DNA of 64,000 nt from a virus, in the IMG/VR virus record IMGVR_UViG_3300025009_000088, positions 1-64,000 of that record, one strand, 5' to 3'. Under the pieces are notes generated by a model. That model saw only the letters and a program-made list of their open reading frames with translations. It was not told the DNA's origin and searched no databases. A program made the translations under genes and the position numbers. Of this stretch, positions 21,629 to 56,992 are shown in pieces; the first letter of the stretch is position 1; every line of letters begins with the position of its first letter.

Positions 21629-22622
21629 GAATTGTGTTTAGTGAAAATCTCTCTCTTGCCAGCTTGCTAAGATTTGCTTGTATGTTTGGAAGTTCTGGAT
21701 TTTGCAAATACGAAATAGTTTTCTCGATAAATATTCCTTGCGTTCTTATTGGATGTCCTTCGATAACCACTCCCATATTAGTTGTTTTCATAGCGCCCGC
21801 GTCCGACGTGATTGGCAATACGCCAGCCACCTGCGACTCTGCTACTGCAATGGCGAATAGCTCGTCGTAGGTTCCGGGGTAGAAGTGTATCTGCGCTTTT
21901 TGCTGTTCCTGTATAAGTCGCTCTCTCGGAACCGCCCCAAGAAACTGAACATTCTTTGAGTTGATAAACCTTGCAACATACCCAGAATTTCCAGGAGAGC
22001 CGTTTCCCCATAAACGATAATCAGATGTAATCACCAGAGAAATATCTGGAATTTTACTTTGCAGTATCGGATACATTCTCGCAACATGCTCCAAGCCCCT
22101 GTCTGGAACAGAAGTAAAGATAAGACGATTTGGAACTTTTTCCTGCGGACTATTATACTCCCAATCTCTTACGGGAAGGTCAATATGAATTGACTTGTCA
22201 ATATTGTATCTTTGCTTGAAATACTCCGAGTGAAACGGAGATATTGTCACTACTGCGTCTGCGATTGTTGAAAAATGTGCGAAGTCTCCGGTTGTGTACT
22301 GATCGCAGGAAAAGAAAATGATTTTGCCTTTCGCTTTATACGCTTTGGCGGTTGGCTCCCTGAAAACAATAAGAATGTCTCTCGCCTCGTCCTTGTAGAA
22401 ATGTTCTACCGGAAGTTGTTCAAACGTCTCGCTAGCGCGCCTCGGATTGTTATATAGACGAATATCGTGTCCCTGATTGAACCAGCCCTCGCACAGCGTA
22501 AGTAGCGCAAGTTCAGAGCCGCCCACGCCCACGCGCCCATTCTTTCCATAAATATCGCTTGGAACAACGCCGTCAGTGGAACCCGCGCCACAAAGAATGT
22601 CAATTTTCATAAGACCGCCCAC
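21594..22622 (-). CDS. Glycosyltransferase, GT-B group 1
   Basis: This 342-residue GT-B protein shows GGSELALLTLCEGWFNQGHD in the N-terminal half and YPGTYDELFAIAVAESQVAG in the C-terminal half. The latter has an E-x7-E donor motif. It overlaps the preceding family 2 gene by 16 bases. The first listed ATG has in-frame alternatives (MKIDILCG, 5 codons on) that fit the family start better. Confidence 0.78.
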   Translation of the reverse strand: MGGLMKIDILCGAGSTDGVVPSDIYGKNGRVGVGGSELALLTLCEGWFNQGHDIRLYNNPRRASETFEQLPVEHFYKDEARDILIVFREPTAKAYKAKGKIIFFSCDQYTTGDFAHFSTIADAVVTISPFHSEYFKQRYNIDKSIHIDLPVRDWEYNSPQEKVPNRLIFTSVPDRGLEHVARMYPILQSKIPDISLVITSDYRLWGNGSPGNSGYVARFINSKNVQFLGAVPRERLIQEQQKAQIHFYPGTYDELFAIAVAESQVAGVLPITSDAGAMKTTNMGVVIEGHPIRTQGIFIEKTISYLQNPELPNIQANLSKLARERFSLNTILAEWDKRVLNG

Positions 22623-23347
22623 TCTGGCAAAGGCTCTATTGAACCGCCAAACTCAAGAGGATGTAGCATTGTCGGGATTTGCCCAGACTCTCTATAGAAC
22701 TTTAGCTTTTTTTCAACCATCTCGTCAGTTTGCCAAGGGCTGTGCAACAACGCGTAGGGCGGATATAAATTCAGCCTCTCGTTTTCTTGCGGAGAAAACG
22801 CTAATTCTTGATGACTTTCCTCCCTGCTTACGCGGTCAGAGCGAAAGCGAAGTTGCGTTCCATTTCTCCACGCCCAAATTGATGGTTCAAAGTTTCCGGC
22901 TTTCAATGGTTGCGCTAATGCCGGAAAGTGACCCTCGTTCTTCCAAAGAAACAGGCGGGTTACGAAGATATAGTTTTTTTGTGTTTCCGTCATTATTTTT
23001 CTTGCGTCTTCTTTTACGGTTTTGTTTGGAAAACAATCGCAATCATCGAAAATTATCCAATCCGCGCTCTCTCCGATAAACGCCCAATCTATAAGAAAAT
23101 TGCAATGAGAGCCGTGTGGATTTCTTGTAATTCCATTTTGCATCTCTACGAAAACATCGTAGTTTCTTACTTCGACGTTTTTGAAACTATTCGCTATTTG
23201 TATTGTGTCATCTCGACTCCCGCCGTCGGCAACAAGGATTTTGTCTGCCCATGTATAGCTTTCGCAGAACCTTGCAATGTTTATTTCTTCGTCTTTCGTC
23301 CTAACCGCTACGCAAATTTTCATTTTCTTTTCTCCAGCAAAAACCAA
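22607..23347 (-). CDS. Glycosyltransferase family 2
   Basis: This 246-residue GT-A enzyme begins its domain with MKICVAVRTKDEEINIARF, the usual family 2 start, about eight codons inside the reading frame. It then has KILVADGGSRDDT and the acidic IIFDDCDCFP motif for metal-nucleotide binding. It is similar to the short LPS core-type glycosyltransferases (WaaE/KdtX-like). Confidence 0.78.
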   Translation of the reverse strand: MVFAGEKKMKICVAVRTKDEEINIARFCESYTWADKILVADGGSRDDTIQIANSFKNVEVRNYDVFVEMQNGITRNPHGSHCNFLIDWAFIGESADWIIFDDCDCFPNKTVKEDARKIMTETQKNYIFVTRLFLWKNEGHFPALAQPLKAGNFEPSIWAWRNGTQLRFRSDRVSREESHQELAFSPQENERLNLYPPYALLHSPWQTDEMVEKKLKFYRESGQIPTMLHPLEFGGSIEPLPEWAVL

Positions 23348-23931
23348 TATTCTATTTCTTCGTCCCTTGCGTCTTTTTCAACCCCCATTCTGTATATTTT
23401 TGTTTTTTGATAAACAACATCAAATCCAGCAACGTCAAACAGGTTTTCCCACTGTTCTGAATCCAAAACAAAATAATGATTTCTGCCTTTGCGCCCCCAA
23501 TAATCAGGACAAGGAAGCACAAGCGCAACGTATTTCTTTGAAACCCTGTACCATTCCGTCAATGTAAGAAGCGGCATTGGACTATGCTCAAGAGAATGTC
23601 TTGCATAGAGCATATCATAGGTTTCGTTTTCAAACGGAAGAAAAGTGAAATCGCAATTCATCACGTTTTTGCCATTTTTCAATGCAATTTCGTAATCTTC
23701 CCCAAGACAAATTCCAACATAATCCAGCCCGTAGTTTGTAAAGAAGCCCTGACAAAACGCTTGACCACAACCAAGATCAAGAACGGATTGAACATTGGTT
23801 GAATTTCTTGTAAATTCAAGTATGCTTTCCGCCGCCCAAATAGTGTGGTTTTCGTCCGGGGGTTGCGGGTAAATATCTTTGATAAGTTTTTGAAGATATT
23901 TGTCTATGTTAGAGTAGTTTCTTCCGTTCAC
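23320..23931 (-). CDS. Class I SAM-dependent methyltransferase
   Basis: This 203-residue protein has the methyltransferase Rossmann motif I, VLDLGCGQAFCQGFF (about 40-54), and a motif near DMLYARHSLEHSPMPL typical of the Methyltransf_11 group. In a glycan cassette it would most likely O- or N-methylate a sugar, but the acceptor is unknown. Its start overlaps the intein-bearing dehydrase gene by ATGA. Confidence 0.78.
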   Translation of the reverse strand: MNGRNYSNIDKYLQKLIKDIYPQPPDENHTIWAAESILEFTRNSTNVQSVLDLGCGQAFCQGFFTNYGLDYVGICLGEDYEIALKNGKNVMNCDFTFLPFENETYDMLYARHSLEHSPMPLLTLTEWYRVSKKYVALVLPCPDYWGRKGRNHYFVLDSEQWENLFDVAGFDVVYQKTKIYRMGVEKDARDEEIEYWFLLEKRK

Positions 23932-26369
23932 GAATGACTCTCCATGAATTCACCAATCTTTTCTACGACATACTCCTGCATTGGTCTGGTTATGATTGGC
24001 GCAACTCCGATCCACATACCAGAATTCATCACGAAATCGCTTTTGTGCAGTGTTCCACTTACTCTATATTTTACATCTTTATAGGCTGGATGTCTTGTTA
24101 GGTTTCCTGCAAACAACATCCTTGTTCCAATCTTGTTAGTTTCCAAGAACGAGACAAACTCGTTTCTTGAAAACCCCGCGTTTTCCTTTATGGATATGGT
24201 AAAACCAAACCAAGACGGGCTACTGTGCGACGATCTCTCTGGAAGGATAAGGTAATCTTTCCACTTGTTCAATTCGTCCCTGTAAAACTGCCAATTATTT
24301 TGTCTTGTTTCAACAAATGCTGAAAGACGCTTTATTTGTGAAAGTCCGACAGCGGCTTGCAGGTCGGTTGCCTTGAGATTATATCCAATTTCAGAGTAAA
24401 TATACTTGTGGTCAAAGCCTTGTGGCAAGTCTCCAAGTTTCCAGTCAAACCTTTTTCCGCACGTATTGTCTTTTCCTGGCGCGCACCAACAGTTATGAAC
24501 AGCAATTCCGTTAACGTGATAGCTGTGTTCTTCTGATGACGTTTCTAAGTTGTAAACATCAATGTCGCTTACCTCAGAGACAACAATAGATCGGATTGGA
24601 TAATGAGCATAATTATTTGAAATCCAAGAAAATGCGTGATTAGTTCTTGCCTTATACGGTTCCCCAAGAAAAACCCCAAGTTTTTCTGCGTTCTTCCCAT
24701 AAATAGATAGAGAGTGTAGATCGTTTTTTGCAACTACGTTCTTTCCGTTTATAACGGAAGGTTTGTGTACGCCTATGCCTCTTTTATACGAAGAGGTCAG
24801 AATTCCAACTCGGAGCAACATTTCTCTTACTTGATTTATCAATATGGTGCTTGTTGACGAAACATTAAATCCCTGGAAAGATGAACTTCCGTCTCCGCGC
24901 CAGTATCCTTTTATAAGTTCTAAACACAGATCGTCGCTCCATCTAAAAATAAATTCAGGAAGGCTTTTATTTGCCGCGCCAGTTCCAAACATTTGTTTGA
25001 AAAACTCGTAACCCTTTCTTGTTTTGAAACAAACAGATACGCCGTTTGACTTTCCGTGTGTTCTTACGTTTCCCGCAATGCCGAAACACTTACGCATGAG
25101 TTCTTTTACATCTTCAATATATTCAATCTCGTCTTTATGAAACGCAAAATCAACTCGATACGAATAGTATTTGTTTTCTATATATCCGCTTTTTCCCTTT
25201 AATCCTTTTGCTAAACTGCCTTCTGCAAGCCAATATCCAATTAGTCTAGCAAGTTCTTTGCTCGGAACTATCTCCTCTTCTTTTGTCTGATAAAGGGTTT
25301 TATATGAAAAATGTATCGGGCGCGTACTGTTATATCTCCCGTATTGTGGAATTGCCTCTAGGAAAATGTCTTTTTTGCATTGTAAGTCCTTTGCCAGAAC
25401 CCATAAATATTCTCCATTCCTGCAAACAAAAAACGGATGTTCTTCTGTGACGCTAATTTTTGGTCGCATTGACGACTTGATTGTGTATAGTTTTCCAGAA
25501 TATTTTCTAACGGATGTTTGTCTAACATCCGTATATTTTCCGGTGTGCGTTCTCACGTTGTCTTGGGCTACGCGTATCTTTTCTATAGGAACAACGCCCC
25601 TATCTGTGTCTACAAGTGTTCCTGCTGGAAAACAAGACCTGCCCCAATCGCGGAATGAGCGTATGATACTGTTCAATAAAGAACTGTCTGTTGTAACTGC
25701 GCCTCCCTCGCCCATCGAAATGTGGTGCGCAGGATAGAAACTAAACGTGGATATGTCCGCCCAAGCCGGAACTGGTTTTGAGTAATGTTCAGCCCCAAGC
25801 GCATCACAGCAATCCGCAACAACCCACAATCCGTTCTGGTCTGCGAGTTCTCTTATTTCCTTTGCTCGATATGGATTTCCAAGTGTATGCGCCATGAATA
25901 TTGCTTTTGTTTTTGGCGTGATTGCTTCGCTGACAGAGTGCGGAAGAGCGTTGTATCCTGGAATATTCGTGTCTATGAAAACAGGAACAAGTCCGTTCTG
26001 GATAATTGGATTTACGGTTGTTGGAAAACCGCACGCAACGGTAATTACTTCGTCGCCCTTTTTGATTGCCCTGTCTTTTAGGCGATTTGACATTAGAGTG
26101 GAGATCGCAAGCAGGTTGGCGGATGAGCCAGAATTGCATAAAATAGCATACCGCTGTAAAGTTGCGTTTGCTAAAAACTTCTCAAATTCGTAGGCGTGTG
26201 CGCCATCAACATACCACCTGCCTAGCGCAACTTCAACAATGGAAGCAACGTCATCGGCGTTCCAGGACGCTCCAGAAGTACGAACATAGGTCTCCCCCGG
26301 AACGAACTTCTCTGGGGCTTTCTTATTGATAAAGTCTCTTACTACGTCTAAAATATATTCGCTATTCAT
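23928..26369 (-). CDS. rfbH: RfbH-type CDP-sugar 3-dehydrase interrupted by an intein
   Basis: The 813-residue precursor would splice to a 432-residue DegT/AHBA-fold enzyme close in size to RfbH (E1). That enzyme removes the C3 hydroxyl of CDP-4-keto-6-deoxyglucose using PMP and a [2Fe-2S] centre. FYPAHHISMGEGG has His (about 215) where aminotransferases have Lys, as in RfbH. In the spliced protein the cysteines fall as C-x57-C-x-C-x7-C, starting from the second Cys of ADCCDALG and ending in CWCAPGKDNTC. This is the iron-sulfur pattern I recall for E1. The intein (residues 246-626) sits immediately before the second of these cysteines. The stop overlaps the methyltransferase start. Confidence 0.88.
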   Translation of the reverse strand: MNSEYILDVVRDFINKKAPEKFVPGETYVRTSGASWNADDVASIVEVALGRWYVDGAHAYEFEKFLANATLQRYAILCNSGSSANLLAISTLMSNRLKDRAIKKGDEVITVACGFPTTVNPIIQNGLVPVFIDTNIPGYNALPHSVSEAITPKTKAIFMAHTLGNPYRAKEIRELADQNGLWVVADCCDALGAEHYSKPVPAWADISTFSFYPAHHISMGEGGAVTTDSSLLNSIIRSFRDWGRSCFPAGTLVDTDRGVVPIEKIRVAQDNVRTHTGKYTDVRQTSVRKYSGKLYTIKSSMRPKISVTEEHPFFVCRNGEYLWVLAKDLQCKKDIFLEAIPQYGRYNSTRPIHFSYKTLYQTKEEEIVPSKELARLIGYWLAEGSLAKGLKGKSGYIENKYYSYRVDFAFHKDEIEYIEDVKELMRKCFGIAGNVRTHGKSNGVSVCFKTRKGYEFFKQMFGTGAANKSLPEFIFRWSDDLCLELIKGYWRGDGSSSFQGFNVSSTSTILINQVREMLLRVGILTSSYKRGIGVHKPSVINGKNVVAKNDLHSLSIYGKNAEKLGVFLGEPYKARTNHAFSWISNNYAHYPIRSIVVSEVSDIDVYNLETSSEEHSYHVNGIAVHNCWCAPGKDNTCGKRFDWKLGDLPQGFDHKYIYSEIGYNLKATDLQAAVGLSQIKRLSAFVETRQNNWQFYRDELNKWKDYLILPERSSHSSPSWFGFTISIKENAGFSRNEFVSFLETNKIGTRMLFAGNLTRHPAYKDVKYRVSGTLHKSDFVMNSGMWIGVAPIITRPMQEYVVEKIGEFMESHS
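24492..25634 (-). mobile_element. LAGLIDADG intein within rfbH
   Basis: This 381-residue intein starts with CFPAGTLVDT (Cys1) and has TEEHPFFV (block B). LIGYWLAEGSL and LIKGYWRGDGS are the two LAGLIDADG endonuclease motifs. It ends DVYNLE, then SYHVNGIAVHN, with the penultimate His and final Asn. The next extein residue is Cys. All residues needed for splicing and both endonuclease acidic residues are present, so it looks active. The insertion point lies between DWGRS and CWCAPG. Confidence 0.9.
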
Positions 26370-49617: not shown

Positions 49618-50076
49618 ATGAAAAACAACATTTCAAACAGTGACGATGTAATTGACTCCCGCGATATTGAGGAGAGGATCACAGAACTGGAATCGGCGCG
49701 GGATGACTGGCAGGAGGAAAATACCCTCCCGGACTATTCAAACACTGACAAGGACACGCCCGAGGGGTGGACCCCGGAACAATTCGAAAAGTGGGTAGAA
49801 TGGGACGAGTCCGAGGAGGGCGAGGACTTGAACGCCCTCTATTCTCTCCGGGATGACCTGGAGGACTACTGCCCAGACTGGAGATACGGCACGACTCTAA
49901 TCCGCGAGTCCTATTGGGTGGAGTATTGTAAGGACATGGTAGAAGAACTGGGCGAACTCCCGAAGGGACTCCCGGACTTCATCGAAAGTAATATCAATTG
50001 GCAGGGAGTGGCCGAGGATTTGCAACAGGATTACACCTCTGGCGAATATGACGGAGTCACATACTGGGCGCGCTAA
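49618..50076 (+). CDS. Conserved acidic mobile-element protein
   Basis: This 152-residue protein is very acidic. It shows VIDSRDIEERITELES at the start, DWRYGTTLIRESYWVEYCKD in the middle and DYTSGEYDGVTYWAR at the end. This is a pattern of a widespread phage/plasmid family annotated only as hypothetical, sometimes compared with ArdA-type antirestriction proteins. The acidity would suit DNA mimicry, but this is not shown. Confidence 0.65.
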   Translation: MKNNISNSDDVIDSRDIEERITELESARDDWQEENTLPDYSNTDKDTPEGWTPEQFEKWVEWDESEEGEDLNALYSLRDDLEDYCPDWRYGTTLIRESYWVEYCKDMVEELGELPKGLPDFIESNINWQGVAEDLQQDYTSGEYDGVTYWAR

Positions 50077-50084
50077 TTCCCGCC

Positions 50085-50120
50085 CTGCATTTGCCCGCGT
50101 CATCGGATGCGGGCAAGCAG
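50085..50120 (+). other. Intergenic compound hairpin
   Basis: Bases 50091-50098 (TTGCCCGC) pair with 50109-50116. After a two-base bulge, 50085-50088 pair with 50117-50120. It is the third hairpin separating small early genes. Confidence 0.6.
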
Positions 50121-50166
50121 GAGGGCAGGAGTTATCCCGCCCCACTATAACAAAAAGGAGTCTGTA

Positions 50167-53893: not shown

Positions 53894-54775
53894 ATGACTA
53901 ACGATCACGAAAACGAATTTTCCAGACCGGACGAATCAAAAGAAATTGTACCAATCGTAGACGAAAGAACTGGCGAGATAATTCCCAGGAACGCACCTCA
54001 ACCAATTGCGAAAGCGATGTACACCTTTGATGTTTCGGCAATTGGAACCCTCAAGTTAGACGAAAACGCAGAAAAGGTCTTGGATGAGCCGCTCGAAGAT
54101 GCGGACGTTTTAATCCGTCCAGACGGTTTGGTTTACCTGCCCTGGACGTACTACGCAAAGAAACTCAATCGTGCGTTTGGTCGCCTCCAGTGGGGCATTA
54201 TTCCAAGCGGAAACCCTGTCAGTAAGGATGTTGGTTACGATAACATTCTTGTCGCCTGGAATTTTTGGCTGGTTGTGAAAGGTATTCCAATTGCGTTTTC
54301 GGTTGGAGAGACAACGTACCGCACCACCAATAAGTCCATGTCCTATACAGACGCTTGCGAAGGCGCGAAATCGTCTGCGCTCGCTCGTAACTGCAAGCAA
54401 CTTGGTATCTCTTTGGAATTGTGGGACAAGGAATGGATCGAAGGTTGGAAGAAGAACAACGCAGAAACATACAAAAAGGATGACAGAGTCCTTTGGCGCA
54501 AGAAAGACCTTAACAAACCGAAAGCCGAGAAGCCCGTCAAGCAAGATGCTGAGCAGGAAACCTCGGAACACATCGAGGAAGGAACTGTCGTTGAGACTGC
54601 GCAGGAATTGTCTGATGGTTATACCGCCAAGCAAATCCTCGCAAAGATTGATGTCGTCAAGGAAATTTCTACTCTCTCCAAGAAGCCAGTCGTTGAAGTC
54701 TGCGGCTTTGTTGGCAAGTTGGAGAAGGGGAAAAAATTCACTGTTGGCGAAATCGTCAAGCAACTAGGAGAATAA
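53894..54775 (+). CDS. Rad52/Mgm101-like single-strand annealing protein
   Basis: This 293-residue protein fits phage annealing proteins of the Mgm101/Rad52 type, which pair complementary strands during recombination. The core spans about 70-190: PDGLVYLPWTYYAKKLNRAF, FSVGETTYRTTNKSMSYTDA and EGAKSSALARNCKQLGISLE. A linker follows, then an acidic-basic tail that may bind SSB. The SSB gene follows directly. Expression is preceded by a structured leader with the ribosome site in a hairpin loop. Confidence 0.82.
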   Translation: MTNDHENEFSRPDESKEIVPIVDERTGEIIPRNAPQPIAKAMYTFDVSAIGTLKLDENAEKVLDEPLEDADVLIRPDGLVYLPWTYYAKKLNRAFGRLQWGIIPSGNPVSKDVGYDNILVAWNFWLVVKGIPIAFSVGETTYRTTNKSMSYTDACEGAKSSALARNCKQLGISLELWDKEWIEGWKKNNAETYKKDDRVLWRKKDLNKPKAEKPVKQDAEQETSEHIEEGTVVETAQELSDGYTAKQILAKIDVVKEISTLSKKPVVEVCGFVGKLEKGKKFTVGEIVKQLGE

Positions 54776-54777
54776 AC

Positions 54778-55152
54778 ATGAGCGACATTGAAATGACTGT
54801 ATTCGGAAATCTTGGTCGTGATCCCGAACAAAAGTTCACTCCGTCTGGCAAAATGATCTGCACCTTCTCAATTGCCAGTTCCGTTGGCTACGGAGACAAG
54901 AAACACACCGTCTGGACAAAGTGCGTAGCCTGGGAGAAACTTGGAGAACTGATCGGCAACATGACCTGCAAGGGAACGTCTCTTTACGTGCGAGGAACGC
55001 CGGAAGTCAAGGTATGGAAAACGAAGGAAGGCGAACCTGCTGGCAACATTGAGATGAACGTGCAGGAGTTCCGTATCTTGAAGAATGGCAAGCCGAAGGA
55101 AGGTGCAGAAGAAAGCACGCCATACGACGGCGACGAGGACGCAGAGGAATAA
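54778..55152 (+). CDS. ssb: Single-stranded DNA-binding protein
   Basis: This 124-residue OB-fold SSB has VFGNLGRDPEQKFTPSGK at the start, the conserved TFSIAS and VWTKCVAWEKL strands, and an acidic tail ending DGDEDAEE for partner binding. Standard bacterial and phage SSBs end in DDxPF; this tail is acidic but lacks the final PF. It lies two bases after the annealing gene and overlaps the next start. Confidence 0.9.
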   Translation: MSDIEMTVFGNLGRDPEQKFTPSGKMICTFSIASSVGYGDKKHTVWTKCVAWEKLGELIGNMTCKGTSLYVRGTPEVKVWKTKEGEPAGNIEMNVQEFRILKNGKPKEGAEESTPYDGDEDAEE

Positions 55153-55883
55153 TGGACATCGAAGCCAAACTTGACATTCTGGATGAATATCACAGCCAAA
55201 AAGACTCAATCGAAGCGCAGAAGAGAACCTTGCTGGACGAGGTGAAAATCCCCGCCGAGATTGAGCAGGTTGTCAGCGAAGGAATGAAGGCGATTGCAGA
55301 AGTTGAGCAGTCCATGCGCGCCGAAGAGAAAGACTTTTATTCTTCGATTGAGACAGGTCTTGCCGCCATAGTAATTCCACAAGAACTCAAAGACGCTCTG
55401 GAAGAGATTGACCGCCAACGTACCGAAATCATGACAAAGTTTCAGGACGTGGAGAAGCAGAAGCAGTTCTTGCGAGTCACAAAGTCTGAACATGATGCGG
55501 AGTTGCTTGAAAAAATCGGTATCCGCAAGGCGGAACTACAAGCAGAGATCGAGCAGAAAACTCGTGACGTTTACGCAGGAGTTGAACAGCGCAGGGCGGA
55601 AATCGAAGCAGAGTTCAAAGGCAAGGCCGAGGCGGTTGACGAGAATATCGCCAAGCTGGAGCAGGAAATCAAAGACGAAGTGAAACTTCGAGCCGCAGAG
55701 AAATTGGCCGCCAACCCGAAGTCGAAAGACTTGTCTGTAAAAGGTAAGTTTTTTACGGCGGTTTACTCGAAGGCGCGCAAAACCTGGGTTCCTGCGAAAC
55801 TTGACGACTACGTTGAAACGCATCCAGACATCAAAGATTGCTACACCGAAGGCGATCCGTCAATTTCAATTCGCCGCGTATAA
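55152..55883 (+). CDS. Coiled-coil protein of the recombination operon
   Basis: This 243-residue protein is nearly all charged helix (EIEQVVSEGMKAIAEVEQSM, then KIGIRKAELQAEIEQK). Its last 50 residues form a small domain (SVKGKFFTAVYSKARKTWVP). It resembles Gp157-type helicase/recombination accessory proteins in layout, but that is a guess. Its stop TAA is supplied by a palindrome copy. Confidence 0.6.
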   Translation: MDIEAKLDILDEYHSQKDSIEAQKRTLLDEVKIPAEIEQVVSEGMKAIAEVEQSMRAEEKDFYSSIETGLAAIVIPQELKDALEEIDRQRTEIMTKFQDVEKQKQFLRVTKSEHDAELLEKIGIRKAELQAEIEQKTRDVYAGVEQRRAEIEAEFKGKAEAVDENIAKLEQEIKDEVKLRAAEKLAANPKSKDLSVKGKFFTAVYSKARKTWVPAKLDDYVETHPDIKDCYTEGDPSISIRRV

Positions 55884-55893
55884 CACCGTGTAA
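55881..55893. promoter_or_regulatory. Dispersed palindrome copy, 1 mismatch
   Basis: TAACACCGTGTAA; its first bases are the stop codon of the coiled-coil gene. It lies directly upstream of a structured RNA candidate. Confidence 0.65.
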
Positions 55894-56140
55894 AACTGGC
55901 GGCGGCTAATCCAGCGCCGGACGGCTAGCAATAGCGACACGAAGAAGCGCACTTCTGAAAATAGCGCAAAACGAGTCCGTAGGTGAAACTCCTGCATTAG
56001 GCTATGTGGCGATGACCCGCCGCCAGTTAACAGCCGCGCTCGGCTTGTAGAAACCAAGAGGCGGCAGTACCAACTCTGCGCCGCGTAACCTAGATGGTTG
56101 ATAGTCGGCATGAACTAAGCACCGAGCGGCGCAGAGAAAT
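55894..56140 (+). ncRNA. Structured non-coding RNA candidate, two domains
   Basis: No gene lies here, but pairing is dense. P1 is 12 bp (55894-55905 with 56017-56028), extended by CTAAT/ATTAG (55906-55910 with 55996-56000). Inside are CGGAC/GTCCG (55918-55922 with 55975-55979), GCTA-GCAA-TAGC with a GNRA loop (55924-55935), and AGAAG-CGCA-CTTCT (55943-55956). The second domain has GCCGC/GCGGC (56033-56037 with 56061-56065), an 11-bp stem 56074-56084 with 56126-56136, and AACC/GGTT inside it. No known RNA family is recognised. Confidence 0.55.
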
Positions 56141-56163
56141 CATAGAAAGAAAGGAAAAATGAA

Positions 56164-56436
56164 ATGGGATGCTATGTAAATCCAACCAACGAAAGCAAGG
56201 AATCCTTCCTGAACCGCGAAGGAAAAGAAGTTGAAAAACCCGCGTATGGCGAACAGGCGCAAGACGAGCAGTTTGTTTGCCTTGTTGACAACGGCTTATT
56301 TACTGCCGCGGCAATTTTATACAACGAAGGAGAGGTTGACGCATTTACTCGACCAGAAGATCGTCGCAAGCGAAAGTTTTACCTTGTGAAAACAGAAAAA
56401 CTCTTCGAGGTATCTCCGCTACAAGAATATCTATAG
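56164..56436 (+). CDS. Small hypothetical protein
   Basis: This 90-residue protein starts MGCYVNPTNESKESFLNREG and continues as an α/β fold (FVCLVDNGLFTAAAILYNEG). Such GCYV-type small proteins are seen in other phages without known role. AAGGAAAA precedes the ATG. Confidence 0.65.
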   Translation: MGCYVNPTNESKESFLNREGKEVEKPAYGEQAQDEQFVCLVDNGLFTAAAILYNEGEVDAFTRPEDRRKRKFYLVKTEKLFEVSPLQEYL

Positions 56437-56444
56437 TGCGGAAC

Positions 56445-56519
56445 GGGCAGTATCGGCTGTAAATACACCTAACCTTGGCAGGCAGGCGTATCAGGTAGGT
56501 TCGACTCCTATCCTGCCCA
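56445..56519 (+). ncRNA. tRNA-like element
   Basis: This 75-base element has a 6-bp acceptor stem (GGGCAG with CTGCCC), a discriminator A, and a good T arm (GTAGG-TTCGACT-CCTAT). The middle does not form a standard D arm or a 5-bp anticodon stem; only short CCT/AGG pairings are possible. CCA is not encoded. It may be a degenerate tRNA, a tRNA mimic, or a former integration site. No anticodon can be assigned. Confidence 0.45.
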
Positions 56520-56575
56520 CACGATCATGTGCTAATACCAAATTAGCGTAGTCAATAAAAAATAAAGAGGAATAA

Positions 56576-56992
56576 ATGGAAAAAATAGTTGAGTTTTCTC
56601 CGGCTTACGACAAACGACATGCAGACCCAAGTAAAAACTATGGCGTCGGCTCTGTGAAAATGCGAATGATTTTGAAAGGAGAACTTGGCGCAACCCAATT
56701 CCTTGTTTATACTTCTTGGTATTTGCCAGAAGTGACGCGAGAACTACGGGCAAAACACAGCGAAATGTTTGAGCCATTGCCCGGCGACGTTGGATACCAT
56801 TCTCCAAAACAAATGTATGAAGGGCAGACCTCAATGGGCGCTTGTCCGTATCTTGATGGCAAAGAATGTTATCATGACGGGTCTGGATTGCGCGCCGAAG
56901 AGGTTTTCAAAGATTTCCTACGAGAAGGCGATTCTGCGGTTTGGAAAGAACTAGAGGAATATTACATAGACCTCTTTGGTGAACTAAAATAA
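56576..56992 (+). CDS. Conserved-looking hypothetical protein
   Basis: This 138-residue protein opens KIVEFSPAYDKRHADPSKNY, continues GSVKMRMILKGELGATQFLV, and has several Cys and His (ACPYLDGKECYHDG) that could bind a metal. AGAGGAATAA precedes the ATG. Function unknown. Confidence 0.65.
   Translation: MEKIVEFSPAYDKRHADPSKNYGVGSVKMRMILKGELGATQFLVYTSWYLPEVTRELRAKHSEMFEPLPGDVGYHSPKQMYEGQTSMGACPYLDGKECYHDGSGLRAEEVFKDFLREGDSAVWKELEEYYIDLFGELK

Follow-up and report, generated by a model that had tools for sequence, protein, structure and literature searches.

Among the described systems closest to the element reported here, the phage RNA DicF is an antisense regulator and is far shorter. It appears in the reference list of PMC12197685 as an operon-embedded prophage RNA released by RNase III and RNase E and, as far as that entry goes, sets a precedent for phage operon-embedded RNAs freed by RNase processing; by analogy, our element may likewise be a noncoding RNA within a phage operon that is freed by processing. 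The STAXI motif is a candidate RNA near SSB genes, also discussed as possible structured ssDNA (PMC2864571), and our element resembles it as a structured noncoding element in mobile DNA, close to an SSB gene and further genes for DNA handling. STAXI, however, is recognised by two or three tandem repeats of a pseudoknot, frequently with UUCG loops (PMC2864571), whereas our element has neither repeats nor UUCG loops, has no Rfam match and does not belong to the motif. ROOL and GOLLD are phage-encoded, elaborately structured noncoding RNAs often found near tRNAs (PMC12286853), and our element has a tRNA-like stretch about 310 nt downstream; these RNAs are nevertheless far larger (many GOLLD RNAs exceed 800 nt; PMC12286853) and have known covariance models, none of which matches the element.

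The element occupies positions 55894-56140 of the window, by which we mean the whole 64,000-nt stretch that was analysed (positions 1 to 64,000 of a 68.7-kb source virus record). It sits inside a run of + strand early genes, with same-strand neighbours, in one operon (Table 1). An Mgm101-family recombinase gene and an SSB gene lie upstream, which bears out the sequence-only reading of the locus as a recombination operon, and farther downstream the early genes encode an HNH endonuclease, an O-like replication protein, a DnaQ-like exonuclease and a DnaB-like helicase. The Mgm101 protein is a mitochondrial-type single-strand annealing protein encoded beside SSB, and tblastn found no relative of it in 50,697 phage records. 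The 243-aa upstream protein had no PHROG, phage or IMG/VR relative. The terminase of this uncultured phage is about 26-33% identical to those of the closest named phages among the matches listed and 46-48% identical to those of two IMG/VR contigs, G014 (64.7 kb; loci L039, L041-L043 and L048) and G015 (34.7 kb; L049-L050), of which G015, a relative by terminase, carries structural genes only. In the late region, an 813-aa gene (23928-26369) carries an aminotransferase-like part (phrog_3139) within its first ~245 residues; since G014 matches residues 1-247 and 626-810 and leaves the middle unmatched, the middle of this protein looks inserted.

Table 1 Features of the element, its flanking genes and the dispersed palindrome (window coordinates)
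Feature	Position	Strand	Remarks
Mgm101-family recombinase	53894-54775	+	Pfam PF06420, E 5.2e-34
SSB	54778-55152	+	PF00436, E 7.8e-19
243-aa coiled-coil-like protein, no family assigned	55152-55883	+	Upstream gene; stop codon 10 nt before element
Dispersed-palindrome copy TAACACCGTGTAAA	about 55880/55881-55894		Overlaps stop codon of upstream gene; touches 5' edge of P1
Domain 1	55894-56028	+	Multi-branch, 135 nt, closed by P1; z -2.85 for domain alone
P2 (Domain 1)	55915-55919 with 56007-56011, then 55921-55926 with 56000-56005	+	Predicted fold
Alternative GNRA hairpin GCTA-GCAA-TAGC	55924-55935	+	In sequence, not in MFE; competes with P2
Long arm (Domain 1)	55936-55950 with 55964-55977	+	Predicted fold
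Hairpin (Domain 1)	55979-55983 with 55991-55995	+	Predicted fold; loop TGAAACT
Linker hairpin between domains	56030-56068 (56033-56037 with 56061-56065)	+	z only -1.7 alone
Domain 2	56074-56136	+	11-bp stem with two small hairpins, 56086-56090/56096-56100 and 56105-56108/56122-56125
Unstructured A-rich leader	56137-56163	+	27 nt; Shine-Dalgarno-like AAAGGA, no U tract
90-aa protein, no family assigned	56164-56436	+	Downstream gene
Palindrome TTTACACSGTGTAAA sites	171, 3431, 12946, 20532, 30848, 34753, 41808, 48468, 48707, 51212, 51696, 53722, 55880, 63541		

The element lies within a gap (55884-56163) that is the only strongly structured gene-free gap of the early region. No + strand ORF of at least 40 aa was found within the gap. 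On the minus strand there is an 81-aa ORF (55866-56111), of a kind expected by chance and without a match, and a hidden protein gene was rejected on the grounds that the sense strand has no coding potential and the minus-strand ORF no match. A terminator scan detected no intrinsic terminator (a GC stem followed by a U tract) in the element. The sequence directly after the last stem is AAATCATAGAAAG, and because this A-rich leader has no U tract the 11-bp last stem does not qualify as an intrinsic terminator; that reading was also rejected. No promoter or terminator belonging to the element itself could be recognised. It is present as a single copy in the record, and a repeat or mobile element was thus rejected as well.

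Two long stems dominate the fold. P1 consists of 12 perfect Watson-Crick pairs, nine of them G/C, between AACTGGCGGCGG (55894-55905) and CCGCCGCCAGTT (56017-56028), and among perfect stems whose loops span no more than 130 nt it is the longest of the whole 64 kb. The second consists of 11 perfect Watson-Crick pairs, again with nine G/C, between CTCTGCGCCGC (56074-56084) and GCGGCGCAGAG (56126-56136). Pair probabilities in both stems were at least 0.98, save for the outermost P1 pair (0.79), and those in Domain 1 ranged from 0.76 to 1.0, except for an outer P2 pair (0.45-0.47). Taken alone, Domain 2 was the most significant piece (z -4.49, 0/200 shuffles). The ribosome-binding site of the 90-aa gene is left unpaired. 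The sequence-only reading had described a gene-free stretch of 247 bases with 12-bp and 11-bp long-range stems, its left edge explained by a palindrome; the stretch is free of genes as described, both stems are exactly as given, and the left edge abuts a dispersed-palindrome copy. The GNRA-capped hairpin that it also described is present in the sequence, but the P2 pairing is preferred in both the MFE structure and the ensemble. Because 55923-55926 pairs with 56000-56003 in both (p 0.79-0.89), the GNRA hairpin is an alternative outside the favoured fold.

We compared the predicted stability with that of shuffled sequence. The MFE of 55894-56140 was -95.8 kcal/mol, against -79.4 +/- 4.6 kcal/mol in shuffles (z -3.57), and none of 1000 shuffles reached so low a value; the gap as a whole had z -3.04, with 4/1000 shuffles as low. 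A single perfect stem of at least 12 bp is unremarkable alone, being expected 0.43 times per shuffled 64-kb stretch, but a stem of at least 12 bp together with a disjoint one of at least 11 bp within 250 nt was not seen in any of 200 dinucleotide shuffles of the whole 64 kb. As a control, 247-nt stretches were slid over 41.5-63.7 kb with 40 shuffles each (n=179 including the element), giving a mean z of -0.36 (sd 1.31). The element had the lowest MFE of the 179 sampled stretches, and in the same 40-shuffle run 6 of the 178 others had a lower z, none of them with a lower MFE. Energy alone would therefore not single out the element; it is set apart by its architecture, its gene-free gap and its strand preference. 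In the same early region, the lowest z belonged to the 247-nt stretch at 50001, and a long intergenic hairpin at 50060-50130, around GCCCGCGTCATCGGATGCGGGC, reached z -3.1 alone.

The two strands differed in how well their folds were defined. Ensemble diversity of the sense strand was 20.5, compared to 52.6 +/- 19.0 in shuffles (4.4% as low), whereas that of the antisense strand was ordinary (53.5 versus 54.9). Unpaired sense-strand bases included 53 A among 99, and 18 U, with 16 A among the paired bases; this share of A among unpaired bases was higher than in about 97% (96.9%) of shuffles. As is looked for in structured RNA in general, the fold was more stable and better defined than shuffles, on one strand. 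Since the well-defined fold is found on the sense strand only, an RNA from the operon strand is favoured over a DNA hairpin, moderately if not decisively. By these statistics the stretch is unusual, and it is a real candidate for an RNA structure on the sense strand of a recombination/replication operon of the phage. The earlier proposal of a structured RNA candidate, to be compared with shuffled sequence, came through this comparison: the fold beat all 1000 shuffles, though such stability is not unique within the region, the joint pair of stems was absent from shuffles, and the ensemble was well defined on the sense strand only.

Membership in an Rfam family was defined by a covariance-model score at or above the gathering threshold of the family. 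No Rfam 15 model (tRNA, tmRNA, group I and II introns, small self-cleaving ribozymes, riboswitches, ROOL, GOLLD, STAXI and phage pRNA among them) matched anywhere in the 64 kb, and a permissive search of 55750-56600 returned sub-threshold scores only, the best being sroD on the minus strand (20.1 bits versus 50). No tRNA or tmRNA was found. A possible P3-P7-P8 layout was judged by eye (GGCTAT at 56000-56005 against ATAGTC at 56101-56106); a group I intron was rejected, with no Rfam intron model matching even permissively and no split gene. Because every tested family failed its score threshold, the element was assigned to none. Searches for relatives of the element were negative in phage and plasmid records by blastn (the best plasmid match, E 0.8 and unannotated, was treated as chance), in IMG/VR with the 243-aa, Mgm101-type and G014 306-aa proteins and with two exact RNA patterns, and in genome contigs by terminase alignment. 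A covariance-model search had also been suggested from the sequence; model R1, built from the element as its single sequence and run over 45 loci and 13 records, matched only the element itself.

The 15-bp palindrome TTTACACSGTGTAAA occurs throughout the early and late regions, both inside genes and between them, with 24 strand matches versus 0.28 expected. G014 carries about 15 copies of an altered palindrome, TTGACACWGTGTCAA. Judged from these sites, the palindromes resemble a stoperator-like repressor system whose specificity may have shifted between relatives. The tRNA-like stretch lies between two early genes (56445-56519); its 5' GGGCAG pairs with its 3' CTGCCC, and it has a perfect T arm (GTAGG TTCGACT CCTAT). 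It has no normal D or anticodon arm, was missed by ARAGORN and the Rfam tRNA models, and its T-arm/acceptor end had no exact match in genome contigs.

Taken together, the folding predictions suggest that this non-coding stretch of ~250 bases very probably forms a defined two-domain RNA. As to its role, we tentatively favour an operon-embedded noncoding RNA that would be transcribed with the Mgm101/SSB genes, probably be released by processing, and act separately. The two-domain RNA, read in the early-operon sense, would be transcribed within a polycistronic message, flanked by the strand-annealing and SSB genes on one side and the early genes downstream on the other. Its long GC-rich stems (P1 and the 3' 11-bp stem) would fix the RNA ends, guard against decay and enable host nucleases to release it from the message, and a protein or RNA partner would probably make contact with the A-rich loops inside P1; action as a discrete noncoding RNA domain appears the most likely mode. 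If real, it would join the few structured RNAs listed for phages as a multi-domain orphan and, adjoining a mitochondrial-type (Mgm101) annealing protein and SSB, would offer a concrete locus for an RNA role in phage recombination/replication; a merely processed spacer would be ordinary. A cis-acting mRNA element, acting within the message as a leader 5' of the 90-aa gene or as a cap at the 3' end of the SSB operon, is possible if rather doubtful. Such an element would tune how strongly the upstream genes are expressed relative to the downstream ones, by way of message stability, cleavage by RNase III, access of ribosomes or binding of a protein such as SSB, and its position, 10 nt past the previous stop and 27 nt before the next start codon, is consistent with this, as are the free ribosome-binding site and the perfect 11-bp stem, a plausible nuclease-processing helix. 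The usual switch outputs are, however, not visible, because the fold excludes the ribosome-binding site and no terminator is present, and a multi-branch domain of 135 nt is more than a simple stabilising element would call for.

The stretch might alternatively be non-functional as a unit, either a GC-rich remnant of intergenic DNA whose two long stems are due to chance or to local inverted duplication, or what is left of a lost gene. Such an origin would fit the equal or lower z-scores of other early-region stretches, the chance expectation for single perfect stems given above and the lack of relatives in the collections searched, but two such adjacent stems in one gap were seen in 0/200 shuffles, and an idle 280-nt gap in a tightly packed operon is rarely kept by tailed phages; we consider it unlikely. 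A role at the DNA level seems very improbable; the stretch would then be, for instance, a start site of replication or recombination whose single strand folds into hairpins that SSB, the Mgm101-type protein or the O-like initiator bind. The neighbouring genes do encode SSB, an annealing protein and an O-like replication protein, and the STAXI motif near SSB genes has been discussed as possible structured ssDNA (PMC2864571). Against this, the fold (under RNA parameters) is well defined only on the sense strand, whereas stems acting in DNA would be expected to work much alike on either strand; GC skew tracks the direction of the genes and does not switch at the element, and no iterons or repeats were found there.

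Returning to the favoured noncoding RNA, we examined the early region of the distant relative G014, where a gene-free gap of 317 nt (22619-22935) immediately follows a gene for a 306-aa protein. By energy per base this gap is the most structured in the G014 early region; though weakly structured, it folds better than its shuffles (z about -2), has its better-defined fold on the sense strand as well, and closes with a 10-bp stem ahead of a ribosome-binding site. It does not resemble the element in sequence (Smith-Waterman score 22 versus a shuffled mean of 28) and gave no convincing match to the covariance model of the element, and is for these reasons a positional parallel at most; while suggestive, this is not homology. 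No family matched the 306-aa protein, although its acidic tail (DEDDDL) suggests a possible SSB-like role. It would be a decidedly unlikely further step to see here a new class of phage noncoding RNA beside annealing/SSB genes in a little-known phage lineage, with fast-evolving members at the same place in this phage and G014, acting in recombination-dependent replication or host take-over. Two known RNA families were found elsewhere in G014: an int-alpA RNA match beside the terminase genes (L041 5072-5141, minus strand; 40.6 bits, threshold 35.8) and, in the early region just before a ribosome-binding site, a Type-P5 twister ribozyme (L041 12667-12721, + strand; 43 bits, threshold 37.6).
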